Shown: positions 5,287 through 64,000 of the stretch, in pieces
How the letters are laid out: every line of letters begins with the position of its first letter
How positions within the stretch are numbered: position 1 is the stretch's first letter
Assembly (NCBI RefSeq): GCF_964355755.1
Contig: NC_092678.1
Location: 4,744,922 to 4,808,921, forward strand
Source: Antedon mediterranea
Taxonomy: Eukaryota > Echinodermata > Crinoidea > Comatulida > Antedonidae
Direction: 5' to 3'
DNA length: 64,000 bases
Notes under the pieces: model-generated
What the model was told of the DNA's origin: nothing
The model's database searches: none
What the model saw: only the letters and a program-made list of their open reading frames with translations
Translations under genes and position numbers: made by a program

Positions 5287-5290
5287 TAAT

Positions 5291-25194: not shown

Positions 25195-26795
25195 CAGGCA
25201 GATTCGAGTTGGCGTGGTTGTCATCTAAACCTCTGCCTAGGAAATGGAATATTTATAGTATGATTTTGTTGTGATGGTCTTCACAATCCTCATTCCACTC
25301 TCTCACATTGCATGGTAAGAAGGGCCAAATCTGGTAATTAGTTCTGTGGGAATTGGATGAGAACTGGTTGGGATGTGAAGCCCTTTTTATTTTTAGAGCC
25401 AGTCGCTTCAAGGGGTCAAAAACAGAGTTGATAAAAAGCTGCTGGTTGCTGTACTTAGAGAAGAAACAATGTCTAGCTTCCTTTCTCCTGCTCTGTAGTG
25501 AGTTCCATTTCAGTTCCTCCATCATGTTATTAACCCTTGAGGTTCTGCAAAACCTCCTAGTGACCCCATCTAGCTGCAATTCGTTGGATCTTCTCAAGAC
25601 AAGTTATGTTGATTTGTGTGTACTGTGTGGGGATCCCATACAGTTAAAGCGTACTCCATTCTAGGTCATACTAGAGCTTTGTAGACTGCTTTCACCTTCT
25701 TAGAGCCATTTAAGATTCCTTTTTAAGAATCCCAGAGCCTGGTTTCCAGCTTGGCAGACATTTGTGATGTGCTGGTTCCACACGCAATTTAGATCATTAG
25801 ATATGGTGACACCGAGGTACTTGATGTTATCCACCTGCTTGATAACATGTCCATGCAAAGAATACAATATGGATGTAGGACCTTTCTTTCTAGATATGAT
25901 CACGGCACTTATCTGGATGGAATTCCATCTCCCACATCTTCCTATTCAGCCAATTTGTAAATATCAGCTTGGAGACGGTTGTATCTCATCTCTTCTTGAT
26001 GTGCTTTCTCAATGTATAAGTGTATCATCGCCAAATAATCTGGTAGTGAACTTTAGGCAGGTCATTGATAAGAAGAGCCGATCATTGTGCTACACCAGAT
26101 AATACAGGAATGTATGAGTACTTTGTCCCGTTCATTACAACAGCTTGTGTCCTCTCTGAGAAATTTTTCAATACATCTTGAAGTCTTACCACAGACACCA
26201 TTTCTTCTAAGCTTGTGTATCAGGAGTGGGTGGCACACTTTATCAAAAGCTTTTGAAAAGTCAAATACAAGAACATCCTGACGTTTACCTTTCTCTGCAA
26301 TTTCAGTGAGCTCGTCAAGTTAAGTCTCGGTAGATCTGTCACCGCGATATCCAAGTTGCTCATCTTTTAGGATGTTGTGCTGGTCACTATGAGACATCAG
26401 ATTAGTAACGATGATGTGTTCCATAATTTTACAAGAGATACTGGTCAATGGTCTGTAGTTAGATGCTTTGTATCGCTCACCTTTTTTAAATACTGATGTT
26501 GATGTCAGGGCACTCTGACCAGCCCAACCTTTCATTATTAAGACACCGTTCAAGTTCATCCTCGTCAAAACTCTCAGGATCACTGAATACAGATTGGAAT
26601 TGGTTATTAAGTATGTTGGCTGGCTTTTCAGGATCAGTCACTAGTCTACCATTATGTTTCAAGTTATAAACACCAACATTTCTTTTGATTAGTTTCCGTA
26701 ACTTCTTGTTTGGCACAATTTTTTCATCAGATGATCTTTTCTCAGTAACTGTCCAGTATTGACATCTCGGTGAGCGTTGTATCTCCCTTTTTAAT
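25195..26795 (-). pseudogene. LINE A, reverse transcriptase to 3' end
   Basis: Minus strand, from 26795 down: the same RT start as in unit 1, then beyond the point where unit 1 is cut: GQRTQAV-type and Leu-rich segments (26100-26330), IKYLGVTISNDLNCVWNQHI with NQALGFLKRNLK (about 25700-25850), and the C-terminal LQLDGVTRRFCRTSRVNNMM and SLQSRRKEARHCFFSK (25250-25600). These are the ordered C-terminal motifs of CR1/jockey LINEs. Frames are shifted in at least four places. A deletion of the RT active-site segment is likely, since no YxDD is seen. Confidence 0.85.
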
Positions 26796-26951
26796 TGTCA
26801 TATGGGTGGAAGGGTAGGAGGCAATTTACAATAAGCAAACACAACAACGTGGTTCGTTTCTAGTCGGCCATGTTACATCCGTGTACTTTTATTCGTGTAT
26901 CATTATTAGACATAGAGGGCGGTGTATCGGTAATATATATTATCATGACAT
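26796..26951. mobile_element. MITE, unit 2 copy
   Basis: Same insertion as 5131-5286 with TAAT flanks; inherited through the duplication. Confidence 0.75.
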
Positions 26952-26955
26952 TAAT

Positions 26956-27804
26956 GACTTATAGTTAAAGCTTGCAGAAACAAAGTCAAGAGGGAAATCA
27001 TTAAAGCTAAAGTAAAATTTAATGCTGATAGAGTTAGACACCTGCAAAAAACTGACCCAGGTAAATGGCACCAACAGGTCAGAGTTATGACAAACACTAA
27101 GAAAATTGATCTCAATATACCAGTTCCTGAAATTTCTCCTTTGGATCATAAATCCTTTGCTAATGTCATCAATGAATTGTTTACTAACATTAGTGCTCAC
27201 ATCCCTATTCTAAATAAAACTCAATTCCCCGCATTCCTTTTCTCTGACAAACCTGCAACTAAACTTTTTCCTTGGGATATTAAAAAAAATAAAGATCTGT
27301 CAAAGAAAACAAGGCCTGCAGACCAGATTTGGTCCCGCCCAAAATTGTTAAATTATTTGCCATGGAGTTTAGTGAACCACTTTGTGATATACTCAACTGT
27401 TCTTTTTCTGAAAAAGTGGAAAAGGCAGTTGTAGTGGAAAAAGGCAGTTGTAGTCCTTGTGCCCAAGGTTCAGCCTCCTACTATTGACTATTGACAAACT
27501 CAGACCTATCTCCATTACTTCTGTGTTTGCCAAAGGAGCTGAGGAGTTTATCACTGACTGGATCTTGCAAAATATAAGTACAAAAATCGATGTTAACCAG
27601 TTTGGAAATGTTAATCTACTGCTCATTACCTGACCAACTTGGTGCATTATCTCTGTCAAGGTGCTGAGAATAAGCACAATGTTGGTACCATGGTTCTTAC
27701 TGATTTCTCGAAGGCCTTTGATCTTATCGACCATACCATCCTTGTTAGTAAGATCATTGATTTACTAATAGCCCTATACCCTACTTCATTAAATTATTAA
27801 ATTC
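26956..27804 (+). pseudogene. LINE B fragment, unit 2 copy
   Basis: Near-identical to 5291-6140, sharing the same frameshifts and the 8-base loss in the VKGLST region. In this copy the ATG-led frame starts at 27087 because one base is missing upstream. Confidence 0.82.
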
Positions 27805-27931
27805 TTAATTATTTCCCCAGCGAGCTTGCGATTGCTCTTCCCTTCTTTGTTTTTGTTTATTTTATTAATTTTTTATATATATATATTTACTATGACATGT
27901 TTTTTACCTGCAATTTGGCTCTTACCCACGA

Positions 27932-28344
27932 ATGTTGGAAGAATTTCATCTGGTTGTGGAATAGGTATTACATAAAATTTCTTTTTGAACAACCAAAAAT
28001 AGTATAAGCGAACTTACAGTACGTTTCGAAACCTATCAGGTTTCATTCTCAACTGGCGTTTCATCGTCTAGCGTTGTTAGAGTCGATCAACATCAGAAAA
28101 CATGGAAAAATCATGAACAGAGATGAAGGAGCCCACGAATTGTCACACATTTATGATCAACTATTGGAGAAGGGGGCACGTCCTTTTGGACCTATTGGTG
28201 GCGCTATACCAACTCATCGTCGTCATGGGATTAACAACGCTAGACGATGAAACGCCAGTTGAGAATGAAACCTGATAGGTTTCGAAACGTACTGTAAGTT
28301 CACTTATACTATTTTTGGTTGTTCAAAAAGAAATTTTATGTAAT
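27932..28344. mobile_element. Foldback insertion, unit 2 copy
   Basis: Same 413-bp inverted-arm insertion and TCTTACCCACGA flanks as at 6268-6680. Confidence 0.8.
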
Positions 28345-28356
28345 TCTTACCCACGA

Positions 28357-29364
28357 GTTGTAATTTTGGTCGATTTTTGATATTTGAAATAAAAGTGAAT
28401 AACTTATACTTATTTTCCCAGATATAGTCTGTTCTCCCTCTTGATCTCCTTGTGTGTGTCAATATCCAAGGAGCAAGGTGTTTGGCTCTTGATAGTTTCC
28501 GTGGGATACAAATATTCACAGCCTCTTATAGCCAGATGTAAACTCTTTCCAGATATCTTCAGGATTGCTTTCCTGTTCATCATACTTGGATACCAAATGG
28601 TCAGACAGTTGTTTCATTGAGGTGCGAAAAGAGTCCCAATCAGCCTTTGTGTACAAGAACAATGCTTGCTGTGGTTGTTTGGTCCTTTTGGCATAGCTAT
28701 TGGCCTCTAAGTACACAATGTCATGGTCAGAAATTCCTGGTAACACTCTTCAGATGTTGTTGGGAAGGTTAGTCAGATTGTTCGATTCTCTGGTGGGAAT
28801 TTTTTGGACGGATTCTTGAAAGTGATTAATGCTCTTTTCACCTGACTTGTCAGGACAATAATAAGAGCAAACAAGAAGACTCCACTGTCCCTTGAGTTGA
28901 ATTCTGACCATAAAACTTCACATTCTGTAAACAGACTTGGTTCATCATTGCATGGCAGATTATCAGCAATTGCAATAACGACTCCTCCACCTTGTCTGTT
29001 CTCTACGATATACCTTGTAGTTATGTGTAGTTTAATAAATAGTGTAATCAAGGTGGGTCTCACAAACAATGATAACATCAGGCCTAGTACTCAGAATGGT
29101 GTTATGTAAAAGGTGGACTTCATTTGTAACAGACTGAATATTGATATTTAGGAACCGGAGGGGCCACTTGTTTCTCACTTGCCTGCTGGATTTGGTTGGT
29201 GTTGATGAATGTATAGGTTTGAATTCATTCTCATCCATTGTGGATGTGCTGGTATCTGTCGAATGTACAAACTTTGTGCAAGTCAAATACACATCGCTAC
29301 TGCTGTTATTACCACAGACCAAGCAGTACCAACTATAATGTCAGTATCGCCTAAATGTTGAAAC
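28357..29364 (-). pseudogene. LINE A endonuclease region, unit 2 copy
   Basis: Same broken frames as 6693-7700, including GISDHDIVYLEA and GGGVVIAIADN. Confidence 0.85.
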
Positions 29365-29534
29365 GACTTGATGTTGACATCTTGGCATTCAATGTGGAAC
29401 CAATGTCTGCATGTTTCACATGCAATAGCTCTTCTGTTCCAACCAATAGACATTAGTGCATTACATCTTGTAATAGCTGTAAAGGATTACTTTAAATACT
29501 AATTAATGACCAATGGTAGTTTTATTAAACCTAC

Positions 29535-29667
29535 CTTCACTAAAATCTGTGTTTTTAACATGTTTTTCACTATTTCTTTTGTTGGAGTGAATCCCATCAA
29601 TTTATTATCAAGATGCACTTTGAGACTGATTGCTTGACCTGGGCAGACCTTTGAGATGACTCCATAC
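29535..29667 (-). pseudogene. SUPT6H-like: SPT6 S1 exon, unit 2 copy
   Basis: Same exon and splice borders as 7871-8003; one codon near the 3' end differs (KTQI for KTQM). Confidence 0.82.
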
Positions 29668-29793
29668 CTACACAAAATAAAATTAATAAAATTAGAAACA
29701 TGACAAAGAAAAACACACTTTACATGGATACTGCACAACGTCTAAGGGAAGATCAATATCCGAGTTGGAGATGCTCGGTAGACCATATTTTTT

Positions 29794-30720
29794 CCTCTCA
29801 TATTACAATAATGAGCGGAGAGATCTAAAAGGACAGAAACAGGCAAGAGTAACGAAGGAGCAGAGAAGTACACGAGCCATTAACAAAGTCAGAAAAGAAA
29901 TCTACAAAGTAAAAAAGATGCCTGGATAGAAAGACAGTGATGCACAATAGATCAAAGTATTGCAACCAACAACACCAGGAAAGTCATTAAGAATGAGAAC
30001 TAAATCACAGCAAGCAAGACCTGCCACAGCAATCAAAGAAAAGGATGGACACTTACTTACAGAATCAAAGGCAACTGTTGATAAGTGGAAAGAATACTGT
30101 ATCGAACTATGTGATAAGCACAGATCCTGCTGTCAAACAGATTATGAAGAGGAGGAGCCACCCATACTGAAAACAGAGGATAAGAATGCAATAAAAGGCT
30201 TGAAAATAAGGAAGTCTGCCAAAGCAGATAACATCTCTGCGGAACTTCTACAGAATAGAGGTGAAGCTGCGGTTGCCAACACAGTGGACAAAACCCATAG
30301 TAATACCTCTTCCAAAAAATGGAAATCTTCGCCAATGTAATAACTACCGCCTCATCAGTCATTCAAGAAAGGTGCTTCTCCACATCCTATTACACCGCCT
30401 TAAACCTCAAGTCAAATCTATTCTCGCAGAAGGATTTCGTGCTAGAAGAAGCACAACTGAACAAATCTTTAATCAGAAGTGAGATAACTATATGGCCATT
30501 GGAGTCCACAAACATCTCCTTGAAATTGTGAAAGAGCGCAAACTTTCCTGGTTTGACCACTCCACAAGAGCAACATCAAGTCTAGCACAAACCATCGCAG
30601 AATGACTTGGATGGATAAAACTACGATATTGACAAACATGTCATTCTACCAAAGACCGTCAAAAAGGAAGGAGTTGGTGCACCGTACCTCATCTGCTTCT
30701 ACGTCACAAGACAACTAGAC
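29794..30720 (+). pseudogene. LINE D, unit 2 copy
   Basis: Collinear with 8130-9062 with scattered substitutions and a small deletion near 30650. Confidence 0.82.
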
Positions 30721-30791
30721 CAAGACCTGCAATATTAATTGATGTAGATACTTTGCACAAATACTTGTTAAATAAGTAATGTCTTAAGTAC

Positions 30792-30939
30792 CTCACTTAG
30801 TTCTAAAAAGTCATCCTGTAAACAGAATGGACACTGCCACAGACCACTATCAACTTTATGCACTGAATTGGCATTATCAAGTTTCTCACCATGTGGATGT
30901 CCACGAGCAATTTGTATTACTTGCTCTACCACCAATTTT
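30792..30939 (-). pseudogene. SUPT6H-like: SPT6 CPFC exon, unit 2 copy
   Basis: Encodes the same open SGLWQCPFCLQDDFLELSE exon as 9131-9278, with the same splice borders. Confidence 0.85.
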
Positions 30940-31144
30940 CTTGCAAACAAATACAATTTCTTCAGTTTCCAGTTCAATAGAGGATGATAAGTAAACTCTC
31001 GTAATAAAAAAAAACAGTTTTATTTACCTATTGACCTTCTAAAACACGAAAAACATTTAATTTTATGAGAACCACTTCAATTAAACATTGAATAATCATC
31101 TTTTGTATTGTAGTTATTGTAAATATAGCCAAGATTGTGAGTAC

Positions 31145-31424
31145 CTGCCTTGTATGGGATCCCTGAAATGTTACTTGAATCAGCGAGGTAAAGCGTTGAG
31201 TAAACTATTATCTGTTGCCGGTAGTGATAACTGTCTGGCATTAGTGTTACGTATTCCATCCTTGGTTTAAATTGAGGCTGGTATGCCAAGGCTAACTTTC
31301 GGGAAAAAAAGTTTTGTTTTCTTTCTTTTTCTAAAAGTTTACAGACATCATGTTTGCCACCTTCTGCAGTAATGAAGCATTTGTGCATTAAAACATCACA
31401 AGCAAATATTGGTTGAATTTTCAC
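31145..31424 (-). other. Unidentified exon-like frame, better-preserved copy
   Basis: Open minus-strand frame of 115 codons with its surroundings; exon part starts after TTTTTAAAAG and ends at GTACTCAC. Contains several Cys and an aromatic-rich YVTLMPDSYHYRQQ stretch. No signal peptide or known motif seen. One base change relative to unit 1 keeps it open. Confidence 0.42.
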
Positions 31425-31798
31425 CTTTTAAAAAACCAATAAAGTTATATATTAAGCAATGACATTAGTGTGATATAGAAATAGCTTTAAATAACAAAAG
31501 GAAAAAAAATAAACATGACAAAGAAAAACACACTGATTACGTGGACACTGCACAACGTGCTAAAGAAGATTAGTTTTAATTCTAAATCTAAATATATATT
31601 GTTAACAATAATTGGGAAAATAATTGCATCGTCCTGGCAAAGGAAAGAGGGTAATCGGTAACTCAGTTGTTATTGCAAGGATGTTTTCAGATTTCGAAGT
31701 GAAAAAATCTATAGTATTTGTTACGTTTAATGAAGTTTATACTACTGATTAGATATCCTAAAAAAAAAACTAACTGCACCCATATCAGGTTACCTGAC

Positions 31799-32130
31799 TT
31801 CACTAATTCATTCATCTTAGAAGTTGATGCGAGCAATTGAGGCTTACCAGAAACGTATAGGCCTACGTGTTGTCTTAGCGTTTGCTAGTAGGTCACTCGG
31901 AGAGAATAAGCGGAATATGCTGAATTATAGTAGTATGAAACTAGAATTTCGCGATTTGTTAATGGGAAGTGAATTTATAGGTTACCTGGATAATAACCCG
32001 CTTGACTCACATCCACACATCTTCCAGACTTTGGGCAACCGAAAAAAGATGGATGGCAGACTTAGCGCAATTTAAATTTACAATAAAATACCAACGATCA
32101 ATGCAAACGCTTTGAGCAGAAAGGCCGAAC
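31799..32130 (+). pseudogene. Gypsy B RNase H fragment, unit 2 copy
   Basis: As 10140-10460, with 6 extra bases (around 31858) that keep the frame. Confidence 0.8.
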
Positions 32131-32339
32131 TTGGATCTGAACCATGTCAGCACACTTTGCAAGCCGTTGACGAGTGAACATCATCTATTATTTGGCTCCG
32201 CATACAATGCTGTAAGCCAACGTGCATGTTTGAATCGTGGCAATACTGTATACTATTCAACAGTGCCTTACTACGTTTTGAGTTTTCTCTGTTTTATTTA
32301 TACCCGATTTATTTGAACTGTCTACTGACGAGTTAAGAC

Positions 32340-32743
32340 AATGCCTTACAAAGCCATACTTGATGTACTAGCTTCGGCCGAGTTGAGTAAACAAATATCA
32401 GATAGTATCTCATCAGCACTGACCCGTGCCGCCTTTCGAGCAACCATGAAATCGATATTGGATGAAGTTTTCAATGAAAAATGGAAGCTAAACTGAAACC
32501 CTTGTTTGATAGGTTAGACCAGGGTGAAACTAGAATTAGTGAATTAGAGGACATTAACAAAATCTGTTCCGACTCAGAACACTGCTATATCTGAACTTGA
32601 ATTTAAAATTAGATGTCAAGATTCCTTGATCATGATTTTGAGCAATACTCCCGTCGGAACTCATTAAGGGTATACGGTGTGACGGAGTCTTGCGCGGGAA
32701 ACACGGATAACATTTTGAGTGATATTTGTAATGATAAGCTTGG
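32340..32743 (+). pseudogene. LINE ORF1 fragment, left part
   Basis: MPYKAILDVLASAELSK to the middle of the RRM-like core (NSLRVYGVTES, ILSDICNDKLG), then an abrupt switch at GCTTGGT to LINE A sequence of the third copy. Confidence 0.78.
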
Positions 32744-33106
32744 TCTGGAGCTAGGAGCTTTGTTAGGATTGAGGTCCTGAAGTTGTTTACGCATGCCTTT
32801 AATACTGATGTTGATGTCTGGGCACTCTGACCAGCCCAACCCTTCATTAGTAGGACACCGTTCAAATTCATCCTCGTCAAAACTCTCAGGATCAATGAAT
32901 ACAGATTGGAATTGGTTATTAAGTATGTTGCCTGGCTTTTCAGGATCAGTCACTAGTCTACCATTATGTTTCAAGCTATAAACACAAACATTTCTTTTGA
33001 TAAGTTTCCGTAACTTCTTGTTGGGCACAATTTTTTCATCAGATGATCTTTTCTCAGTAACTGTCCAGTATTGACATCTCGGTGAGTGTTGTATCTCCCT
33101 TTTTAA
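32744..33106 (-). pseudogene. LINE A reverse transcriptase start, third copy
   Basis: Minus strand encodes GRLVTDPEKPGNILNNQFQS, INISIKGMRKQLQDLNPNKA: the pre-RT region and RT motif 0, more complete than in units 1 and 2. Confidence 0.83.
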
Positions 33107-37451: not shown

Positions 37452-37537
37452 CCATCTCTCTCTCTCCTGTGTTCACACAACAATAATTTATTATTATTAC
37501 AAATATTTGTTAAATAATTAAGTCCTAGGGAACTTAC

Positions 37538-37662
37538 TTAGTTCAGGAAAGTCATCCTGTGAACAGAATAGATAATGCCACAGACCAGTATCATCTTTAT
37601 GATCCTCACCGTGTGGACGACAACAAGCAATTTGATTAATTGCCCTAGCATCAATTTTCCTC
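37538..37662 (-). pseudogene. SUPT6H-like: SPT6 CPFC-region exon, second set, unit 2
   Basis: As 12879-13003; degraded CPFC motif, same borders. Confidence 0.8.
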
Positions 37663-37742
37663 CTGCAAACAAATAAAATGACATTTTTCAGTTTTCAGTT
37701 CAATAGACGATGAATAAAAACACATTCTTCACTGTAGCTTAC

Positions 37743-37894
37743 CAATATAAAATGTAGCCGGTATTTTTTTGGTCAACATTTGGAATAAAACTTTTAATAG
37801 GGGTCACTTCTTGGAATAAAGATTTCAAATCCTTGTATCGATTGTTTAATTCTGCATGGATATCGTAGAAAGAAATTCTTTTGCTCCCATAGTT
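37743..37894 (-). pseudogene. SUPT6H-like: SPT6 exon (YDI.AEL..RYKDL region)
   Basis: Minus strand is open across the exon: NYGSKRISFYDIHAELNNRY, KDLKSLFQEVTPIKSFIPN, DQKNTGYILY. SPT6 has [20 protein letters not shown] followed by KDLR at this place, just after DAFAEELERQ and before the CPFC exon, and the order here is the same (38220 to 37538). Acceptor TTTACTAG and donor GTAAGC are intact. This is the best exon for confirming the gene identity. Confidence 0.88.
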
Positions 37895-38046: not shown

Positions 38047-38220
38047 CAGTCTTTCTAACTCATCTGCAAAAGCGTCCAAATCTAAATCTCTGGCTTCTCA
38101 GGATTGGCATCCACAGCTGACTCATCATACTCTAAAGCGTCTACTGCCATCTTATGTGCCCAATCGTATTTCTCCAGGTGTGCATGTGTACTGTCGAGTA
38201 CCTCCACATACGCCTCAGTA
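38047..38220 (-). pseudogene. SUPT6H-like: SPT6 exon ([15 protein letters not shown] region), unit 2
   Basis: Minus strand encodes [35 protein letters not shown] and, after a deletion with frameshift, [16 protein letters not shown]. The donor is mutated (GGAACG where the paralogue has GTAATG). Confidence 0.85.
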
Positions 38221-38454: not shown

Positions 38455-38535
38455 TGGTATGGGATCCCTGAAATGTTCCTTGAACCATCAAAGTAAAGCA
38501 TTGAGTGAAATATGTCTGACATCAACGTTTAATCC
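38455..38535 (-). other. Unidentified exon-like segment, unit 2
   Basis: Copy of 13642-13715, ending in ISGIPYQ before GTAGGTACTCAC. Confidence 0.38.
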
Positions 38536-38879
38536 AATTTTTTACTTGACAAGTATTCTTCTTTGAGTTTTTTTAAATATCTACTTCCTTTAACTCCTTA
38601 TCTCGTTTAAAATAACTGTTGGTACTCTGGTGGTGGGTGGGGTTTTAGAAAGTGAGGTTAGTCAAGTGAGACCGAGTTGGGCTACACATGAAGTAGTAGT
38701 CCTTGCTTTAATCAGTCAGCAATCAGAACTTTAAACTTGAGTTGGATACTCACATATTGTATACAGTTTGTTTAGTAGGCAAGTGTTACCAATAAAAACC
38801 CCATCTTGGGCAAAAAGTTATTTCTATAGGCCTATTGTGTTTTGTGTGTAATTCTGTAAATTTCAGACGTCTTGACCGC

Positions 38880-38965
38880 AGGATTATTTTGCGAGTGCTT
38901 TCCCTCACAACGAATTATAATACAGGATTATTTTGTGCGTGCTTTCCCTCACAACGGATTATAAT
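38880..38965 (+). repeat. 43-bp minisatellite, 2 copies
   Basis: Same family and position (before LINE F) as 14078-14211; one copy fewer. Confidence 0.9.
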
Positions 38966-40355
38966 ATATCTAGAGCTAACTGGGATGATATTTATAGATC
39001 TGATGATGTAAATATGGCATATAATAATTTTTATACAACTTTTGCTAATATATGTGATAATAATGCACCGTTTGTAACTTTTAATCCATCAAAAAAGTAT
39101 TTAAGGAAAAGCCATGAATAACTAGAGCTATTAGAAAGAGTATTAACAAAAAACATCAATTGCATTCTAAACTTGTTAAATCTAACTTCAACATAAACAT
39201 GTCCTTAACATATAAAAGATATAGGAATGTATTAACAGGCCTTCTTAGAAAGGCTAAAGAAATGTATTATGGTGATTTGTTTATGAAAAGTAAAAGTAAT
39301 ACAATTAAAACATGGGGAATTATAAACAGTATTCTTAAAGAGTGTAAATTAAATTATTCCAGATAAACTTAAATTAAATTATGGTAATATAGAATGGCAG
39401 AAATTTAGCAAGCAAGATTGATTGCTCTCAAAAAAGTTCCAATGAATATTTGAAAAATTCAATTAGTTCCTCTTTATATTGGAAACCTGATTTAGAATTT
39501 GAAATTAAAGAATTATTAAGAAATATAGATATAAAAAAGGCCACTGGACATGACCAGTTAACTGCTAGATTAATTAAGGATTCATCTATTGTTATTGCAA
39601 AGCCATTAACATATATTATTAACTTATTACTTGTCACAGGTGTTTTTCCTGATGACTTGAAAGTGGCACAAGTGACTCCAAATTTTTTTAAAGGGTTATA
39701 AGGATCTCCTTGGAAATTATCTACAGATTTCAGTTTTGCCACTATAAACCAAAGTATTTAAAAGGATTGTGAAAAATAAATTATTAGATTTTATAGAAAA
39801 AAATAATATATTTTATTGTCATCAATATGGTTTCCGCCAAAAGTATAGTACTAAACATTCTCTATTTAATCTAGTTAATCAAATAATACAATACTTAGAT
39901 GAGGGGAGAGTCACAGTAGGAGATTTGATTTAGTCAAAGCTAGTCTGGGTTCCAGACGGAGTTTTGTCTTAATATTAGTAAAAAGATAAATATTTTGGCA
40001 CATATAGCGTTTCATACGTATACTACTTGATTTTGTATTTTCAGACAAAAATCGCGGTCGAAATAAAAAAAAAAAAATAAAAAAAAAAGATAATACAGAC
40101 TTGGGGCAAGTCTAAGTCAAAGCCTTTGACACCATTGATCATAGTATTCTTTTGTCTAAACTGGCTCATTATGGAATCAGAAGATTGCCTTTAAATTGGT
40201 TTAAAAATTATTTAGAAAATAGGAGACAATATGTTAAACTCAATGGAGTTCGGTTATCATCACTACTGCGGAGTACCGCAGGGTTCGGTGTTAGGCCCAA
40301 CTATATTTCTTCTCTATATAAATGATTTATCACTCTCTACACCATATTATAATTA

Positions 40356-42655: not shown

Positions 42656-42817
42656 ATTTGAGTGCTTTCCCTCACACGGATTATAATTCAGGATTATTTT
42701 GTGAGTGCTTTCCCTCAAAACAGATTATAATTCACGATTATTTTGTGAACACTTTCCCTCACAAGGGATGATAATTCAGGATTATTTTGCGAGTGCTTTC
42801 CCTCAAAACGGATTATA
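42656..42817 (+). repeat. 43-bp minisatellite, 4 copies
   Basis: Counterpart of 17972-18143, directly before the cyclin D pseudogene. Confidence 0.9.
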
Positions 42818-43304
42818 ATGTTAGAGGTATCTGAAACCCAGAGATGTGAGGACGATGATAGAATTTGTAAAAAACAGAATATCTGAAACAAACAGTACCA
42901 CTTCTAGCTGAAACCCTGATAGACTAGACGGACAACTCAATTACATACCAACAACTTATGGAAATCGAGGTTTCTATTGTGAAGGACCTGAACCACTTAC
43001 TCCACAAGATGTATTGGAACAAGTGCTTAGTGCATTAAACATTAAACATAAGTACATCACTTCAATAACAAGGAAATGTAATGATGTTATATATCGGTGT
43101 ATCAAAGACTACTCATTCACCACTTATCCACCTTCTTTGATAGTTGCGGGGTGTACCATGTACATATTGGAAGACAGGGTGCCAAACCTGACATCACAGT
43201 TAAACGTGCTGACAGAAATAATATCTGAGAACATTATTAAATGCAGAGACAAAATCAAACTGATTGTCAAGAGGGAAAGAAAAGAAAACGTTGATGAATT
43301 ATGA
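42818..43304 (+). pseudogene. CCND-like: Cyclin D-like retropseudogene, copy 2
   Basis: As copy 1 but with deletions removing the LLGAGCLFVASK segment. The C-terminal cyclin fold is open from 43014 (VLEQVLSALNIKHKYITSIT, YPPSLIVAGCTMYILEDRVP, IKCRDKIKLIVKRERKENVD, stop). Confidence 0.83.
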
Positions 43305-43423
43305 CATTTTGAAATTTTTACTTTACGTTGTACTAAAGACATTTATTGTTTTAACTTAACTTCCGAATACTTATTGACATTAAAAATTAAATTAGAATAA
43401 ACTCACAACAGATGATAATTCAG

Positions 43424-43750
43424 GATTATTTTGGGAGTGCTTTCTCTCTCAAGGGATTAAAATACAGAATTATTTTTGCAAGTGCCTTCCCTCACAACGG
43501 ATTATAATTCAGGATTATTTTGCGAGTGCTTTCCCTCAAGACAGATTATAATTCAGGAATATTTTGTGAGTCCTTTCCCTCACAACAGATTATAATTCAG
43601 GATTATTTTGTGAGTGGTTTTCCTCACAACAGATTATAATTCAGGATTATTTTGGGAGTGCTTTCTCTCACAAGGGATTAAAATACAGAATTATTTTTGC
43701 AAGTACCTTCCCTCACAACGGATTATACTTCAGGATTATTTTGTGAGTGC
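43424..43750 (+). repeat. 43-bp minisatellite, about 8 copies
   Basis: Largest block of this family; some units repeat as pairs (TTTTTGCAAGTRCCTTCCCTC recurs at 43465 and 43690). Joins the third cyclin D fragment. Confidence 0.88.
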
Positions 43751-43751
43751 T

Positions 43752-44660
43752 TGGTTGCAGATTGTATGTGAAAACCAGAGATGTGAGGAAGATTTTTTCA
43801 CCATTGCGATGAACTACTTTGATAGAATTTTGTATAAAAAAAAAAAAATGGAGGAGGAGTGTGTATCTACATAAATGATGTATCGTTCAATACAAAGCTA
43901 GAAATGAGTATTGACAGTTTAGAATCAATCTGGATTGATATATTGCTACCCAAGTTGAAACCTATTGCTGTTGGATGCTTTTATCGCCCTCCCACTTGTA
44001 AAGCATTTCTTGAAAACTTCTTAAACTTAAGATCTGATTGTGAATTGTATGTTTTAAGTGATTTCAATATTAATTTTAATAAGAATGTTCATGATTTTGC
44101 TGTTATGTTTAAAAATAAGTTGATATGTAAGAAAAATAGGATCTCATATCTTGGTTGTTTGCTTGATGAAGACCTGTCTGGAGAATCTATGGTTCAAAAA
44201 GTTCTTAGTAAGACTAATTCAAGACTTAAATTTTTGTATAGACATTCTGCATGTCTAAATTTCTTTTCGTGTAAAATTCTATGTTCGGCACTGATTACTT
44301 GTCACTTTGATTATGCATGTTGCTCCTGGTTTCCAGCTGTTTCTAAAAAACTAAAAAGACTTCAAACCACTCAAATAAAGTTGCAACTGTTGGGCGCTGG
44401 ATGTCTATTCGTTGCATCCAAACTGAAACAACCACTTACTCCACAAGATGTATTGGAACAAGTGCTTAGTGCATTAAACATTAAATATAAGTACATCACT
44501 TCAATAACAAGGAAATGCATTCACCACTTATCCACCTTCTTTGATAGTTGTACATATTGGAAGACATGGTGCCAAACCTGAAATCACAGTTAAACGTGCT
44601 GACAGAAATAATATCTGAGAACATTATTAAATGCAGAGACAAAATCAAACTCAGGATTAT
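43752..44660 (+). pseudogene. CCND-like: Cyclin D-like copy 3 interrupted by a LINE fragment
   Basis: 43752-43850 encodes LQIVCENQRCEEDFFTIAMN YFDRIL-type cyclin-box start. Then comes a LINE insertion (43850-44383), then cyclin again: LQLLGAGCLFVASKLKQ, PLTPQDVLEQVLSALN, with small deletions, ending near 44650. This copy keeps the cyclin-box N-terminal helix that the other two lack. A 240-codon frame (43859-44581) runs through the LINE part into the cyclin part without a stop. Confidence 0.83.
43850..44383 (+). mobile_element. LINE fragment, endonuclease joined to RT C-terminus
   Basis: Encodes GGGVCIYINDVSFNTKLEMS, VGCFYRPPTCKAF and LYVLSDFNINF (endonuclease), then directly ISYLGCLLDEDLSGESMVQK and SALITCHFDYACCSWFPAVS (C-terminal region). 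The RT core is deleted, yet the frame stays open. Confidence 0.82.
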
Positions 44661-50123: not shown

Positions 50124-51505
50124 AGACTTTTAAAAAACCAAAACGTTTATAAACTTGAAAAAAAAAAATAATACAAACAAAACAAAAACCACCTCTTCTC
50201 CAAGTACCGTAAATCCTCATGCTTTATGTTGTTTTGGTTGTTCTGCCAACTAAGATGACAAACCAAAAAGGCCAATTTGATTTGACCATGAAGTACTCCA
50301 ATGATTTGAAATGGAAATACTCGCAGAAATTGGATACTAACCACAGGACTATACATGGAATAGACTCTACCATTGTTAGAGTGCGCCTAACAATGTAAGA
50401 GCGTGCTTTCCAATGTTAGAGCAAGCCTACCGAAAAGTGCGAGCCTAACAAAGAGTGCGAGCCTACCGAAGAGTGCGAGCCTAACAAAGAGTGCGAGCCT
50501 AACAAAGAACAAAGAGTGCGAGCCTAACAAAGAACAAAGAGTGCGAGCCTAACAAAGAGTGTGAGCCTACCAAAGAGCTGTGCAGCTAGCCTACCAAAGA
50601 GTGCTGCTGAAGAGGTACGAGCCCACAGCTGCTAAATAAGTATGAGCCTACAGATGTTAAAGAAGTATGAGCCTACAGATGCTAAATAAGTATGAGCCTA
50701 CAGATGCTAAAGAAGTATGAGCCTACAGATGCTAAAGAGTGCAATTCTAACGCCAATAAGAGTGCGAGCCCAACAATATTTAGGAGTGCGAGCCTAACGC
50801 TATTAAGAGTGCGAGCCTAACGCTATTAAGAGTGCAAGTCTAACGCTATTAAGAGTGCAAGTCTAACAATATTTAGGAGTGTGAGCCTAGAGTGCAAGTC
50901 TAACGCTATTAAGAGTGCAAGTCTAACGCTATTAAGAGTGTAAGCCAAACAATATTTAGGAGTATGAGCCTAACGCTATTAAGAGTGCGAGTCTAACGCT
51001 ATTAAGAGTGCGAGCCTAACACTAGCAAGAGTGCAAGCCTAACGCTAATAAGAATGTGCAGCCAGCAATATTTTAGAGTGTGAGCCTAACGCTATAAGAG
51101 TGTGAGCCTAACACTAGCAAGAGTGCAAGCCTAACGCTATTAAGAGTGTGAGTCTAACGCTATTAAGAGTGCAAGCCTAACGCTATTCAGAGTGTGAAGC
51201 AGATCCACTATAACATCGGTAAATGAACTCTAACACCAGTAGACGAACTCTAACAATGGTAGAGTCTACTCTACATGCATTTTTCCAGTGGTTAATAACC
51301 AATTTCCGTATGTAATTCCATGTCAAATCATTGGAGAACTTCAAAGTCTAATCAAATTGGCCTTTTCGGTTTGCCTCTTAGTGGGCAGAACAACCAAAAC
51401 AAAACAAAAAGCATGGGGATGTACAGGAGTCGGAGAGGAGGTAGTTTTACAAAGTACAAACAAGCAAACAAAAAGTTTATAAACGTTTTGGTTTTTTAAA
51501 AGTCT
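50124..51505. mobile_element. Foldback element with minisatellite core
   Basis: Arms 50124-50382 and 51247-51505, each 259 bp, are inverted copies with some divergence (both contain AAAAACCAAAACG or its complement, and ACTCTAACAATGGTAGAGTC or its complement at the inner ends). The core 50383-51246 is a tandem array. No transposase. Structure matches foldback-type DNA elements; superfamily unknown. Confidence 0.8.
50383..51246 (+). repeat. 23-bp minisatellite in foldback core
   Basis: Variants of GAGTGCGAGCCTAACGCTAT with AA repeat about 35 times. A left sub-block uses CTACCGAA or CTAACAAA endings (50430-50570), a middle block uses 25-bp TATGAGCCTACAGATGCTAA units (50640-50730), and the right block uses CGCTATTAA. 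Confidence 0.9.
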
Positions 51506-54407: not shown

Positions 54408-54472
54408 CACACGTCTTTCTAACTCACCTGCAAAAGTATTCAATTCAAAATCTCATAGCTTCTTAAAAATCT
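54408..54472 (-). pseudogene. SUPT6H-like: SPT6 exon 3' remnant adjoining the satellite
   Basis: Minus strand encodes EIFKKL.DFELNTFAGELERR, corresponding to the PADALNE...[14 protein letters not shown] end of the SPT6 exon, but diverged. It continues without a break into the first 77-bp monomer, which carries the preceding exon sequence ([16 protein letters not shown]). This places the array inside an SPT6 exon copy. Confidence 0.8.
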
Positions 54473-55599
54473 CATTCAAAGCATCGGCAGGAATAGGATT
54501 AGCATCCACAGCTTACTCATCATACACTAAAGCGTCTACTGCCATCTTACGTGCCCATTCAAAGCATCGGCAGGATTAGCGTCCACAGCTTACTCATCAT
54601 ACTCTAAAGCGTCTACTGCCATCTTACATGCCCATTCAAAGCATCGGCAGGATTAGCGTCCACAGCTGACTCATCATAGTCTAAAGCGTCTACTGCCAAC
54701 TTCTATGCCCATTCAAAGCATCAGCAGGATTAGCGTCCACAGCTTACCCATCACACTCTAAAGCGTCTACTGCAATCTTACGTGTCCATTCAAAGCATCG
54801 GCAAGATTAGCGTCCACAGCTTACTCATCACACTCTAAAGCGTCTACTGCCATCTTACGTGCCGTGCCATTCAAAGCATCGGCAGGATTAGCGTCCACAG
54901 CTTACCCATCACACTCTAAAGCATCTACTGCCATCTTACGTGCCCATTCAAAGCATCAGCAGGATTAGCGTCCACAGCTTACCCATCACACTCTAAAGCG
55001 TCTACTGCCATCTTACATGTCCATTCAAAGCATCGGCAGGATTAGCATCCACAGCTTACTCATCATACTCTAAAGCGTCTACTGCCATCTTACGTGCCCA
55101 TTCAAAGCATCGGCAGGATTAGCGTCCGCAGCTTACTAATTATACTCTAAAGCGTCTACTGCCATCTTACATGCCTATTCAAAGCATCGGCAGGATTAGT
55201 GTCCACAGCTGACTTATCACACTCTAAAGCGTCTACTGCCATCTTATATGTCCGTTGAAAGCATCGGCAGGATTAGCGTCCACAGCTTACTCATCATACT
55301 CTAAAGTGTCTACTGCCATCTTACATGCCCATTCAAAGCATCGGCAGGATTAGTGTCCACAGCGTACCCATCTAGTCTAAAGCGTCTACTGCCATCTTAC
55401 GTGCCCATTCAGAGCATCGGCAGGATTAGCAACCAGTTTACTCATCACACTCTAAAGCGTCTACTGCCATCTTAGGTGCCAATTCAAGGCATCGACAAGA
55501 TTAGCGTCCACAGCTTACTCATCATAGTCTAAAGCGTCTACTGCCATCTTACGTGCCCATTCAAAGCATCGGCAGGATTAGCAACCACAGCTTACTCAT

Positions 55600-58500
55600 C
55601 ACACTCTCAAGCGTCTACTGCCACCTTAGGTGCCCATTCAAAGCATCGGCAGGATTAGTAATCACAGCTTACTCATCACACTCTAAAGCGTCTACTGCCA
55701 TCGTACGTATCCATTCAAAGCATCGGCAGGATTAGCGTCCACAGCTTACTTATCACACTCTGCGCGTCTACTGCCATCTTATATGCCCATTCAAAGCATC
55801 GGCAAGATTAGCGTCCACAGCTTACTCATCATACTATAGAGCGTCTACTGCCATCTTACGTGCCCATTCAAAGCATCGGCAAAATTAGCGTCCACAGCTG
55901 AATCATCACATTCTAAAGCGTCTACTGCCATCTTACATGTCCATTCAAAGCATCGGCAGGATTAGCGTCCGCAGCTTACCCATCATAGTCTAAAGCGTCT
56001 ACTGCCATCTTACGTGACTATTCAATGCATCAGCAAAATTAGTGTCCACATCTGACTTATCACACTCTAAAGCGTCTACTGCCATCTTATACGTCCATTC
56101 AAAGCATCGGCAGGATTAGCAACCACAGCTTACTCATCACACTCTAAAGCGTCTACTGTCATCTTACGTGCTCAATCAAAGCATCGACAGGATTAGCATC
56201 CACAGCTGAATCATCATACTCTAAAACGTCTACTGCCATCTTATATGCCCATTCAAAGCATCGGCAGGATTAGCGTCCACAGCTTACTCATCATAGTCTA
56301 AAGCGTCTACTGCCATCTTACGTGCCCATTCAAAGCATCGGCAGGATTAGCAACCTCAGCTTACTCATCACACTCTAAAGCATCTACTGCCATCTTACGT
56401 GCCAATTCAAGACATCAGCAAGATTAGCGTCCACAGCTTACTCATCATAGTCTAAAGCGTCTACTGCCATCTTACGTGCCCATTCAAAGCATCGGCAGGA
56501 TTAGCAACCACAGCTTACTCATCACACTCTCAAGCGTCTACTGCCATCTTACGTCATGCCCATTCAAAGCATCGGCAGGATTAGCAACCACAGCTTAATC
56601 ATCACACTCTAAAGCGTCTACTGCCATCGTATGTGTCAATTCAAAGCATCGGCAGGATTAGCGTCCACAGATTACTCATCACACTCTGCGCGTCTACTAC
56701 CATCTTATGTGCCCATTCAAAGTATCGGCAAGATTAGAGTCCACAGCTGACTCATCACACTCTAAAGCGTCTACTGCCATCTTACATGTCCATTCAAAGC
56801 ATCGGCAGGATTAGCGTCCACAGCAATGCTCATCATACTCTAAAGTGTCTACTGCCATCTTATGTGCCCATTCAAAGCATCGGCAGGATTAGTGTCCACA
56901 GCTTATTCATCACACTCTAAAGCGTCCACTGCCATCTTACGTGCCCATTCAAAGCATCGGCAGGATTAGCGTCAAACAGCTTACCCATCATAGTCTAAAG
57001 CGTCTACTGCCATCTTACGTGCCCATTCAAAGGATCGGCAGGATTAGCGTCCACTACCCATCATAGTCTAAAGCGTCTACTGCCATCTTACGTGCCCATT
57101 CAAATCATCGGCAGGATTAGCAACCACAGCTTACTCATCACACTCTAAAGCGTCTACTGCCATCTTACATGCCCATTCAAAGCATCGGCAGGATTAGCGT
57201 CCTCAGCTTACCCATCATAGTCTAAAGCGTCTACTGCAATCTTACTTGCCCATTCAGAGCATCGGCAGGATTAGCGTCGACAGCTTACTCATCACACTCT
57301 AAAGCGTCTACTGCCATCTTACGTGCCAATTCAAAGCATCGGCAGGATTAGCAACCACAGCTTACCCATCATAGTCTAAAGCGTCTACTGCCATCTTACG
57401 TGCCCATTCAAATCATCGGCAGGATTAGCAACCACAGCTTACTCATCACACTCTAAAGCGTCTACTGCCATCTTACATGCCCATTCAAAGCATCGGCAGG
57501 ATTAGTAATCACAGCTTACTCATCACACTCTAAAGCGTCTACTGCCATCGTACGTATCCATTCAAAGCATCGGCAGGATTAGCGTCCACAGCTTACTTAT
57601 CACACTCTGCGCGTCTACTGCCATCTTATATGCCCATTCAAAGAATTGGCAAGATTAGCGTCCACAGCTTACTCATCATACTATAGAGCGTCTACTGCCA
57701 TCTTACGTGCCCATTCAAAGCATCGGCAAAATTAGCGTCCACAGCTGAATCATCACATTCTAAAGCGTCTACTGCCATCTTACATGTCCATTCAAAGCAT
57801 CGGCAGGATTAGCGTCCGCAGCTTACCCATCATAGTCTAAAGCGTCTACTGCCATCTTACGTGACTATTCAATGAATCAGCAAAATTAGTGTCCACATCT
57901 GACTTATCACACTCTAAAGCGTCTACTGCCATCTTATACGTCCATTCAAAGCATCGGCAGGATTAGCAACCACAGCTTACTCATCACACTCTAAAGCGTC
58001 TACTGTCATCTTACGTGCTCAATCAAAGCATCGACAGGATTAGCATCCACAGCTGAATCATCATACTCTAAAGCGTCTACTGCCATCTTATATGCCCATT
58101 CAAAGCATCGGCAGGATTAGCGTCCACAGCTTACTCATCATAGTCTAAAGCGTCTACTGCCATCTTACGTGCCCATTCAAAGCATCGGCAGGATTAGCAA
58201 CCTCAGCTTACTCATCACACTCTAAAGCATCTACTGCCATCTTACGTGCCTATTCAAGACATCAGCAAGATTAGCGTCCACAGCTTACTCATCATAGTCT
58301 AAAGCGTCTACTGCCATCTTACGTGCCCATTCAAAGCATCGGCAGGATTAGCAACCACAGCTTACTCATCACACTCTCAAGCGTCTACTGCCATCTTACG
58401 TCATGCCCATTCAAAGCATCGGCAGGATTAGCAACCACAGCTTAATCATCACACTCTAAAGCGTCTACTGCCATCGTATGTGTCAATTCAAAGCATCGGC

Positions 58501-59330
58501 AGGATTAGCGTCCACAGATTACTCATCACACTCTGCGCGTCTACTGCCATCTTATGTGCCCATTCAAAGTATCGGCAAGATTAGAGTCCACAGCTGACTC
58601 ATCACACTCTAAAGCGTCTACTGCCATCTTACATGTCCATTCAAAGCATCGGCAGGATTAGCGTCCACAGCAATGCTCATCATACTCTAAAGTGTCTACT
58701 GCCATCTTATGTGCCCATTCAAAGCATCGGCAGGATTAGTGTCCACAGCTTATTCATCACACTCTAAAGCGTCCACTGCCATCTTACGTGCCCATTCAAA
58801 GCATCGGCAGGATTAGCGTCAAACAGCTTACCCATCATAGTCTAAAGCGTCTACTGCCATCTTACGTGCCCATTCAAAGGATCGGCAGGATTAGCGTCCA
58901 CTACCCATCATAGTCTAAAGCGTCTACTGCCATCTGACGTGCCCATTCAAAGCATTGGCAGGATTAGCAACCACAGCTTACCCATCATAGTCTAAAGCGT
59001 CTACTGCCATCTTACGTGCCCATTCAAATCATCGGCAGGATTAGCAACCACAGCTTACTCATCACACTCTAAAGCGTCTACTGCCATCTTACATGCCCAT
59101 TCAAAGCATCGGCAGGATTAGCGTCCTCAGCTTACCCATCATAGTCTAAAGCGTCTACTGCAATCTTACGTGCCCATTCAGAGCATCGGCAGGATTAGCG
59201 TCGACAGCTTACTCATCACACTCTAAAGCGTCTACTGCCATCTTACGTGCCAATTCAAAGCATCGGCAGGATTAGCAACCACAGCTTACCCATCATAGTC
59301 TAAAGCGTCTACTGCCATCTTACGTGCCCA
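55600..59330 (-). repeat. Higher-order block, period about 1847 bp (24 monomers)
   Basis: Rare variants recur in the same order: CTATAGAGCG at 55849 and 57690, CAGCAATGCTCATC at 56821 and 58668, GTCCACTACCCATC at about 57050 and 58905. The first two pairs are about 1841-1847 bp apart and the third about 1.85 kb. The CAGCAATGCT variant appears again at 62827 (54 monomers on). Confidence 0.85.
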
Positions 59331-59429
59331 TTCAAATCATAGGCAGGATTAGCAACCACAGCTTACTCATCACACTCTAAAGCGTCTACTGCCATCTTAC
59401 ATGCCCATTCAAAGCATCGGCAGGATTAG

Positions 59430-62400
59430 CGTCCTCAGCTTACCCATCATAGTCTAAAGCGTCTACTGCAATCTTACGTGCCCATTCAGAGCATCGGCAG
59501 GATTAGCGTCGACAGCTTACTCATCACACTCTAAAGCGTCTACTGCCATCTTACGTGCCAATTCAAGGCATCGGCAGGATTAGCAACCACAGCTTACTTA
59601 TCACACTCTCAAGCGTCTACTGCCATCTTACTTGCCCATTCAAAGCGTCGGCAGAATTAGCAACCACAGCTTACTCATCACACTCTAAAGCGTCTACTGC
59701 CATCGTACGTGCCCATTCAAAGCATCGGCAGGATTAGCGTCCACAGCTTACCCATCACACTCTAAAGCGTCTACTGCCATCTTACGTGCCCATTCAAAGC
59801 ATCGGCAGGATTAGCGTCCACAGCTTACTCATCATAGTCTAAAGCGTCTACTGCCATCTTACATGTCCATTCAAAGCATCGGCAGGATTAGCATCCACAG
59901 CTTACTAATCATACTCTAAAGCGTCTACTGCCATCTTACGTGCCCATTCAAAGCATCGACAGGATTAGCAACCACAGCTTACTCATCACACTCTCAAGCG
60001 TCTACTGCCACCTTAGGTGCCCATTCAAAGCATCGGCAGGATTAGTAACCACAGCTTACTCATCACACTCTAAAGCGTCTACTGCCATCGTACGTATCCA
60101 TTCAAAGCATCGGCAGGATTAGCGTCCACAGCTTACTTATCACACTCTGCGCGTCTACTGCCATCTTATATGCCCATTCAAAGCATCGGCAAGATTAGCG
60201 TCCACAGCTTACTCATCATACTATAGAGCGTCTACTGCCATCTTACGTGCCCATTCAAAGCATCGGCAAAATTAGCGTCCACAGCTGAATCATCACATTC
60301 TAAAGCGTCTACTGCCATCTTACATGTCCATTCAAAGCATCGGCAGGATTAGCGTCCGCAGCTTACCCATCATAGTCTAAAGCGTCTACTGCCATCTTAC
60401 GTGACTATTCAATGCATCAGCAAAATTAGTGTCCACATCTGACTTATCACACTCTAAAGCGTCTACTGCCATCTTATACGTCCATTCAAAGCATCGGCAG
60501 GATTAGCAACCACAGCTTACTCATCACACTCTAAAGCGTCTACTGTCATCTTACGTGCTCAATCAAAGCATCGACAGGATTAGCATCCACAGCTGAATCA
60601 TCATACTCTAAAGCATCTACTGCCATCTTATATGCCCATTCAAAGCATCGGCAGGATTAGCGTCCACAGCTTACTCATCTTAGTCTAAAGCGTCTACTGC
60701 CATCTTACGTGCCCATTCAAAGCATCGGCAGGATTAGCAACCTCAGCTTACTCATCACACTCTAAAGCATCTACTGCCATCTTACGTGCCAATTCAAGAC
60801 ATCAGCAAGATTAGCGTCCACAGCTTACTCATCATAGTCTAAAGCGTCTACTGCCATCTTACGTGCCCATTCAAAGCATCGGCAGGATTAGCAACCACAG
60901 CTTACTCATCACACTCTCAAGCGTCTACTGCCATTTTACGTCATGCCCATTCAAAGCATCGGCAGGATTAGCAACCACAGCTTACTCATCACACTCTAAA
61001 GCGTCTACTGCCATCTTACATGCCCATTCAAAGCATCGGCAGGATTAGCGTCCTCAGCTTACCCATCATAGTCTAAAGCGTCTACTGCAATCTTACGTGC
61101 CCATTCAGAGCATCGGCAGGATTAGCGTCGACAGCTTACTCATCACACTCTAAAGCGTCTACTGCCATCTTACGTGCCAATTCAAGGCATCGGCAGGATT
61201 AGCAACCACAGCTTACTTATCACACTCTCAAGCGTCTACTGCCATCTTACTTGCCCATTCAAAGCGTCGGCAGAATTAGCAACCACAGCTTACTCATCAC
61301 ACTCTAAAGCGTCTACTGCCATCGTACGTGCCCATTCAAAGCATCGGCAGGATTAGCGTCCACAGCTTACCCATCACACTCTAAAGCGTCTACTGCCATC
61401 TTACGTGCCCATTCAAAGCATCGGCAGGATTAGCGTCCACAGCTTACTCATCATAGTCTAAAGCGTCTACTGCCATCTTACATGTCCATTCAAAGCATCG
61501 GCAGGATTAGCATCCACAGCTTACTAATCATACTCTAAAGCGTCTACTGCCATCTTACGTGCCCATTCAAAGCATCGACAGGATTAGCAACCACAGCTTA
61601 CTCATCACACTCTCAAGCGTCTACTGCCACCTTAGGTGCCCATTCAAAGCATCGGCAGGATTAGTAACCACAGCTTACTCATCACACTCTAAAGCGTCTA
61701 CTGCCATCGTACGTATCCATTCAAAGCATCGGCAGGATTAGCGTCCACAGCTTACTTATCACACTCTGCGCGTCTACTGCCATCTTATATGCCCATTCAA
61801 AGCATCGGCAAGATTAGCGTCCACAGCTTACTCATCATACTATAGAGCGTCTACTGCCATCTTACGTGCCCATTCAAAGCATCGGCAAAATTAGCGTCCA
61901 CAGCTGAATCATCACATTCTAAAGCGTCTACTGCCATCTTACATGTCCATTCAAAGCATCGGCAGGATTAGCGTCCGCAGCTTACCCATCATAGTCTAAA
62001 GCGTCTACTGCCATCTTACGTGACTATTCAATGCATCAGCAAAATTAGTGTCCACATCTGACTTATCACACTCTAAAGCGTCTACTGCCATCTTATACGT
62101 CCATTCAAAGCATCGGCAGGATTAGCAACCACAGCTTACTCATCACACTCTAAAGCGTCTACTGTCATCTTACGTGCTCAATCAAAGCATCGACAGGATT
62201 AGCATCCACAGCTGAATCATCATACTCTAAAGCATCTACTGCCATCTTATATGCCCATTCAAAGCATCGGCAGGATTAGCGTCCACAGCTTACTCATCTT
62301 AGTCTAAAGCGTCTACTGCCATCTTACGTGCCCATTCAAAGCATCGGCAGGATTAGCAACCTCAGCTTACTCATCACACTCTAAAGCATCTACTGCCATC

Positions 62401-62670
62401 TTACGTGCCAATTCAAGACATCAGCAAGATTAGCGTCCACAGCTTACTCATCATAGTCTAAAGCGTCTACTGCCATCTTACGTGCCCATTCAAAGCATCG
62501 GCAGGATTAGCAACCACAGCTTACTCATCACACTCTCAAGCGTCTACTGCCATTTTACGTCATGCCCATTCAAAGCATCGGCAGGATTAGCAACCACAGC
62601 TTAATCATCACACTCTAAAGCGTCTACTGCCATCGTATGTGTCAATTCAAAGCATCGGCAGGATTAGCGT
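59430..62670 (-). repeat. Higher-order block, period 1619 bp (21 monomers)
   Basis: Variant-bearing segments at 59555 and 59940 recur at 61174 and 61559, exactly 1619 bp apart, with almost no differences, indicating a recent block duplication. Confidence 0.88.
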
Positions 62671-64000
62671 CCACAGATTACTCATCACACTCTGCGCGTC
62701 TACTACCATCTTATGTGCCCATTCAAAGTATCGGCAAGATTAGAGTCCACAGCTGACTCATCACTCTGTAAAGCGTCTACTGCCATCTTACATGTCCATT
62801 CAAAGCATCGGCAGGATTAGCGTCCACAGCAATGCTCATCATACTCTAAAGTGTCTACTGCCATCTTATGTGCCCATTCAAAGCATCGGCAGGATTAGTG
62901 TCCACAGCTTATTCATCACACTCTAAAGCGTCCACTGCCATCTTACGTGCCCATTCAAAGCATCGGCAGGATTAGCGTCAAACAGTTTACCCATCATAGT
63001 CTAAAGCGTCTACTGCCATCTTACGTGCCCATTCAAAGGATCGGCAGGATTAGCGTCCACTACCCATCATAGTCTAAAGCGTCTACTGCCATCTGACGTG
63101 CCCATTCAAAGCATCGGCAGGATTAGCAACCACAGCTTACCCATCATAGTCTAAAGCGTCTACTGCCATCTTACGTGCCCATTCCAATCATCGGCAGGAT
63201 TAGCAACCACAGCTTACTCATCACACTCTAGAGCGTCTACTGCCATCTTACATGCCCATTCAAAGCATCGGCAGGATTAGCGTCCTCAGCTTACCCATCA
63301 TAGTCTAAAGCGTCTACTGCAATCTTACGTGCCCATTCAGAGCATCGGCAGGATTAGCGTCGACAGCTTACTCATCACACTCTAAAGCGTCTACTGCCAT
63401 CTTACGTGCCAATTCAAAGCATCGGCAGGATTAGCAACCACAGCTTACCCATCATAGTCTAAAGCGTCTACTGCCATCTTACGTGCCCATTCAAATCATC
63501 GGCAGGATTAGCAACCACAGCTTACTCATCACACTCTAAAGCGTCTACTGCCATCTTACATGCCCATTCAAAGCATCGGCAGGATTAGCGTCCTCAGCTT
63601 ACCCATCATAGTCTAAAGCGTCTACTGCAATCTTACGTGCCCATTCAGAGCATTGGCAGGATTAGCGTCGACAGCTTACTCATCACACTCTAAAGCGTCT
63701 ACTGCCATCTTACGTGCCAATTTAAAGCATCGGCAGGATTAGCAACCACAGCTTACTTATCACACTCTCAAGCGTCTACTGCCATCTTACTTGCCCATTC
63801 AAAGCGTCGGCAGAATTAGCAACCACAGCTTACTCATCACATTATAAAACGCCTACTGCCATCTTACATGCCCATTCAAAGCATCGGCAGGATTAGCGTC
63901 CACAGCTTACTCATCACACTCTAAAGCGTCTACTGTCATCTTACGTGCTCAATCAAAGCATCGACAGGATTAGCATCCACAGCTTACTCATCACACTCTC

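Follow-up and report, generated by a model that had tools for sequence, protein, structure and literature searches.

Paired 77-bp minisatellite arrays, very probably born in place from a coding exon of degenerating SPT6 duplicates in Antedon mediterranea

In this report, we describe a stretch of 64,000 nucleotides from the crinoid Antedon mediterranea (hereafter the window; C9:4744922-4808921 of the species' own genome assembly, which comprises 354.4 Mb in 18 contigs), beginning with the tandem repeat at its end, examining its relation to the gene SPT6, and weighing how the repeat may have arisen. The 77-bp unit of this repeat derives from an SPT6 exon. Together with a shorter neighbour, the repeat forms a pair of minisatellite arrays at one locus, which very probably arose in situ out of a coding exon in an SPT6 duplicate undergoing decay.

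Two arrays of a 77-bp unit within an SPT6 exon

The initial annotation had placed a tandem array of about 124 copies at window positions 54473-64000. This is confirmed by Tandem Repeats Finder (TRF), which describes 54495-63999 as a repeat of period 77 with 123.4 copies and 87% matches, and by wrap-around segmentation, which yields 125 segments (123 complete) with a mean identity to the consensus of 93.2%. The copy number holds for the window, but not for the array as a whole: the window edge cuts an array of 181 complete units (array A; C9:4799394-4813342, 13,949 bp), about two thirds of which lie inside the window, and array B (C9:4815427-4817066, 1,640 bp), a neighbour with 21 complete units, lies outside the window. 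The two arrays differ in unit make-up, and array A contains 116 distinct sequences among its 181 units. Blocks of units recur in array A with little change, for example 21 units at 99.88% and 28 units at 99.12% identity, with block identities ranging from 99.1 to 99.9%. A Ser codon is replaced by TAA in 142/181 units of array A and 17/21 units of array B.

The reverse complement of the 77-bp consensus translates to a segment of an SPT6 exon, which bears out the earlier reading of the minus strand. The derivation of the unit from SPT6 is likewise upheld by the genome itself, as an SPT6 gene on contig C3 carries the slice, identical to the array A consensus at 68 of 77 positions. The exon in question, e16, matches the Pfam family HHH_9 in the C3 gene (E 1.1e-06), and the first 46 amino acids of an exon copy at window 24315-24500 match SPT6 chains in the PDB (best E 7.5e-13). 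At the C3 locus, 23 exon peptide blocks defined from that locus are open and in order (37689310-37701741), and exon e15 is open there as well. This SPT6, on another contig than the arrays, is apparently the functional gene. Its protein has a best identity of 63% among the best 120 of 999 matches, and in a tree of 18 rows that we chose from these 120 it groups with a sea star, two sea urchins and one further row, with an acorn worm outside (fork supports 100/99). Six-frame reads of C3 37698500-37700240, between exons of this gene, additionally revealed long stop-free tandem repeats (e.g. WPTAPNQLSSSDEGYRRE).

Both arrays lie inside the exon from which their unit comes. Read along the minus strand, each array is preceded by an acceptor (tttacag) with the 5' part of the exon and followed by the 3' part. 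In the host copy of array A, similarity to C3 stops at the exon end, at about window 54413, where a donor site is not recognisable; the host of array B retains a donor-like gt. Upstream of array A lie e19, e14 and e15, with C9:4813993-4813723 spanning e15 and its intron at 88.6%. Upstream of array B lie e13, e19 and e14, and e15 was looked for there and not found. The window features that belong to exon e16 are as follows.

54473-64000, minus strand: array A of the 77-bp unit, window part (TRF and segmentation), continuing past the window to C9:4813342
54413-54472, minus strand: 3' part of the host SPT6 exon e16, adjoining array A directly; similarity to the C3 locus ends near the lower coordinate
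24315-24500 (C9:4769236-4769421), minus strand: unamplified degenerate SPT6 exon e16, AG/GT ends kept, frame broken
13243-13409, minus strand: degenerate SPT6 exon e16 with a 33-nt loss between AATCCTG repeats
38047-38220, minus strand: degenerate SPT6 exon e16 with the identical 33-nt loss

The copy at 24315-24500 had been described as an exon with intact splice sites. Its AG acceptor and GT donor are present, but relative to the C3 gene it has gained 2 nt at the 5' end and lost 3, 4 and 17 nt, and owing to these frame-breaking indels it is a pseudo-exon and not a working exon. The partial copies reported at 13243-13409 and 38047-38220 are also present, each having lost the 33 nt that separate a pair of AATCCTG repeats in the exon. 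Judged by their sequence, all three window copies are pseudo-exons; since all have indels and two lack part of the unit, they are ruled out as the functional gene or the parent.

Repeat class and SPT6 copies on contig C9

A 22-nt core taken from the unit was searched for throughout the genome, allowing 2 mismatches at most. The scan returned 191 matches, all on one strand (reversed control 0), of which 164 fall in array A, 20 in array B, none between the arrays and seven in single exon copies, namely the three in the window, two at locus L010 and one each at L013 and L014. The C3 exon has 4 mismatches to the core and hence stands outside the 191. Because the core occurs only in two adjacent arrays and seven single exon copies, the repeat is a one-locus minisatellite pair, not the satellite DNA that had been proposed; a dispersed satellite is ruled out by this count, with one locus of 15.6 kb in the 354-Mb assembly. 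Minisatellites have units of ~10-100 bp and arrays of ~0.5-30 kb at one or few loci, and here a 77-bp unit forms adjacent arrays of 13.9 kb and 1.6 kb. Satellite DNA is abundant, with very long arrays, often at several chromosome sites, and makes up constitutive heterochromatin. A coding array, or coding exonic variable number tandem repeat (VNTR), is ruled out by the 77-nt unit, by TAA in most units and by the antisense direction of the longest frames, the three longest stop-free frames of each array all lying on the plus strand.

SPT6 pieces are widespread on C9. A search of the genome with a 537-amino-acid SPT6 query (C3 exons e14 and e16-e23) gave at least 115 matches, a lower bound because 81 of 253 candidates were scored. 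Among the matches listed, all are on C3 or C9, those on C9 lie at 1.24-1.25, 2.64, 2.67, 2.87, 3.37 and 4.71-4.82 Mb, and many of the C9 matches, not all, have stops inside. A fusion of e19 to e14, frequently accompanied by e13 and arranged unlike the gene itself, occurs at C9 1.25, 2.64, 2.67 and 3.37 Mb (L013, L015, L016, L017), and since it recurs in this way, the array hosts belong to a rearranged family. DNA comparison found a further SPT6 copy at C9 4.68 Mb. The broken copy at C9:4684654-4684901 (L014) carries seven 24-bp units (ANPADALN, 4684654-4684854) from the same e16 exon; a 40-nt piece of e15 adjoins e16 there, and as e15 is cut short, the contact is not a splice join.

The C9 copies have kept introns and lost the frame while the parent is present, as in duplicated pseudogenes, and the e16 copies are flanked by homologous intron DNA, which sets them apart from processed (retro)pseudogenes. 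The majority sequence of exon e16 on C9 differs from C3 in 15 codons (12 synonymous, 3 not), as would fit either descent from a founder exon still at work or changes that took place in C3. Further SPT6 fragments in the window are listed here.

4545-11077, strand not assigned: segmental duplication of ~6.5 kb, 99.0% identical to 26210-32744, with SPT6 exon fragments
7865-7981, minus strand: degenerate SPT6 e19 (CPGQAI)
9128-9283, minus strand: degenerate SPT6 e18 (GLWQCPFCLQDD)
9549-9758, minus strand: degenerate SPT6 e23
12874-13147, minus strand: degenerate SPT6 e18 (12874-12975) and e17 (13079-13147), downstream of the 13243 copy
13643-13828, minus strand: SPT6 e23 (13643-13684) and e11 (13757-13828) fragments, out of gene order
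29529-29645, minus strand: second copy of degenerate SPT6 e19
30789-30944, minus strand: second copy of degenerate SPT6 e18
31209-31418, minus strand: second copy of degenerate SPT6 e23
37533-37894, minus strand: degenerate SPT6 e18 (37533-37634) and e17 (37738-37894), downstream of the 38047 copy
38455-38641, minus strand: SPT6 e23 (38455-38514) and e11 (38570-38641) fragments, out of gene order

Proposed origin and alternatives

We are highly confident that the slice was not excised and seeded elsewhere, and that it would instead have expanded in situ in degenerate, intron-bearing SPT6 copies on C9. The process may have begun when an SPT6 stretch with introns reached C9 and multiplied there as frame-less copies, a direction of movement suggested by the broken intron-bearing copies on C9 and the open exons on C3. 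Subsequently, 77 nt of e16 would have been tandemly duplicated at the imperfect homology GATTGGG / GAATGAG (5 of 7 letters alike), through slippage or microhomology-mediated repair. In C9-type exons, TGGG opens the unit and TGAG (TGAA in C3) comes right after its end, with TG exactly common, and the join letters TGAG, from the exon's own 3' side, are kept in 8/21 units of array B and 8/181 of array A, as expected of the first junction. Moreover, in a longer unit in array B the exon end is joined to the unit at GATGAGTCAG, with GATGAGT present twice in the C9-type exon, and deletions occur at direct repeats, such as the loss of the 33 nt enclosed by AATCCTG repeats in two copies and of 17 nt enclosed by CAG repeats in the copy at 24315. 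The repeat-bearing piece may then itself have been duplicated, yielding the hosts of A and B, a common origin suggested by the position of both arrays at the same exon place, below the same upstream e19 and e14. Finally, array A would have grown to ~181 units by unequal exchange of unit blocks, an expansion presumably unopposed by selection in a frame-less copy. From unit joins at short homologies and near-identical blocks, we infer microhomology-primed duplication, followed by block-wise unequal exchange.

Several points weigh against this account. Shared ancestry would explain the TAA found in arrays A and B and in the 24-bp copy, but so would exchange between the arrays, and TCA is kept in 28/181 units of array A (and one of array B). 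Adjacent units of array A are 88.2% identical vs 88.5% for all pairs; because neighbours are no more alike than units at large, single-unit slippage is not dominant now and recent growth was by blocks. The plus strand of array A has a stop-free stretch of 128 codons (its longest), which we read as chance. Furthermore, the 22-nt core scan misses strongly diverged units, the DNA similarity search within the own genome, which passes over very frequent words, left the window part of the array unreported, and a single assembly underlies both the copy number and the block identities.

Other origins can be weighed against the same evidence. The initial annotation held that a slice left the functional exon by excision in register and became a true satellite through amplification elsewhere; an origin of the unit in the exon is clear, but the arrays sit in place between two parts of the exon, which form their flanks, at one locus only, and the unit of 77 nt is not a multiple of 3, making such an excision extremely unlikely. 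Alternatively, a mobile element could have picked up SPT6 DNA, with the array as its internal repeat, as retroelement-like frames (seen by eye) in the window and SPT6 pieces at several C9 places might suggest. However, the array flanks are SPT6 exon, SPT6 exons and an intron lie upstream, and the matches listed are, the gene aside, only on C9; with the intron upstream of array A confirmed, this origin is weakened and appears very improbable. Inflation of a shorter real repeat during assembly, for which the 21-unit blocks at 99.88% could be assembler duplicates, is unlikely given the 116 distinct sequences in 181 units, the several values of block identity and the different unit make-up of the two arrays.

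As to function, the arrays are most likely inert. Small RNAs from the arrays might tune or silence the functional SPT6, in the manner of Drosophila Stellate and its suppressor repeats. The C3 exon is matched exactly over 21 nt at 182 positions in array A and 40 in array B, over 22 nt at 87 and 23, and over 23 nt at 1 and 8, whereas a reversed-exon control at 18 nt gave 0 in both arrays; moreover, Piwi-interacting RNA action of the Stellate and pseudogene kind has precedent in the excerpted text of PMC7792047. Nevertheless, in neither array does an exact match to the C3 exon reach 24 nt, and because the matches end at 23 nt, a perfect match would be possible for 21-22 nt small RNAs and not for longer Piwi-interacting RNAs; transcripts in the direction of the host copy would, in addition, be sense and not antisense. 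We therefore consider such regulation very unlikely. It is more doubtful still that C9 might be a low-recombining, perhaps sex-linked or driving region with amplified SPT6 pieces, whose 21-22 nt array RNAs would act on SPT6 in a Stellate-like arms race.

Comparison with known systems

In coding exonic VNTRs such as MUC1, the frame is preserved and the repeats are translated. The SPT6 arrays are like them in having expanded in tandem within an exon, but differ in their 77-nt unit and in the stop found in most units. Stellate and its suppressor are gene-length repeats with small-RNA action; the SPT6 arrays share with them a relation of tandem repeats to a protein gene, but use a 77-nt slice. In the excerpt of PMC7792047, Stellate mRNA is repressed by Piwi-interacting RNAs, and pseudogene-derived ones act on cognate mRNAs. 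The CapA satellite of Platyrrhini has a suggested origin in an intron of NOS1AP (Valeri et al. 2018, as cited in the excerpt of PMC8210747); it, too, is a tandem repeat that could be followed back to part of a gene present once in other species, but its source is intronic and it is a major satellite, whereas the SPT6 arrays stem from a coding exon, in situ, in a broken copy at one locus. In the Drosophila simulans clade, the excerpt of PMC8794474 describes Y-linked duplicates, many of them likely pseudogenes, with microhomology-mediated repair proposed, and new Y-linked satellites some of which may derive from non-repetitive DNA. Gene duplicates confined to one chromosome are a common trait, but the excerpt names no exon as seed, and C9 is not known as a sex chromosome.

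Seeds of tandem repeats given in the excerpt of PMC5615363 include ribosomal spacers and transposons and, in theory, any sequence. Among the records listed in literature searches, no exon-derived satellite was seen as judged by titles and the starts of abstracts, which is no proof of absence, and the word 'exon' does not occur in the portion of the review PMC12628747 examined. As the seed has usually disappeared, one can rarely watch a tandem repeat arise; the present case stands out in that a coding exon served as seed and that source, intermediates and junctions all survive. Since a single genome contains the working gene, broken copies that were never amplified, both a short and a long array, and early junctions, it is possible to put the steps of duplication, frame loss, microhomology junction, array duplication and block amplification in order. 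A conserved coding exon can thus seed a long array once it is in a dead copy, and a single SPT6 exon gave repeats of two unit lengths, 77 bp and 24 bp. In ~200 copies within two broken SPT6 copies on one chromosome, one can follow base by base how a long repeat emerged from protein-coding sequence.

Some additional features accompany the arrays and the SPT6 fragments. Upstream of array B, L009 9722-9839 (minus strand) contains a 5S ribosomal RNA-like copy (Rfam RF00001, 79.8 bits), and Rfam found no other RNA family in the window or L009. An open frame of 1203 amino acids at window 93-3701 looks, by eye, like a Ty3-type gag-pol retroelement. A 44-bp tandem repeat occurs at five window places (14080-14211, 17965-18145, 38879-38966, 42659-42819 and 43402-43752), and window 50424-51194 holds a complex array with units of ~18-25 bp (AACAAAGAGTGCGAGCCT type).

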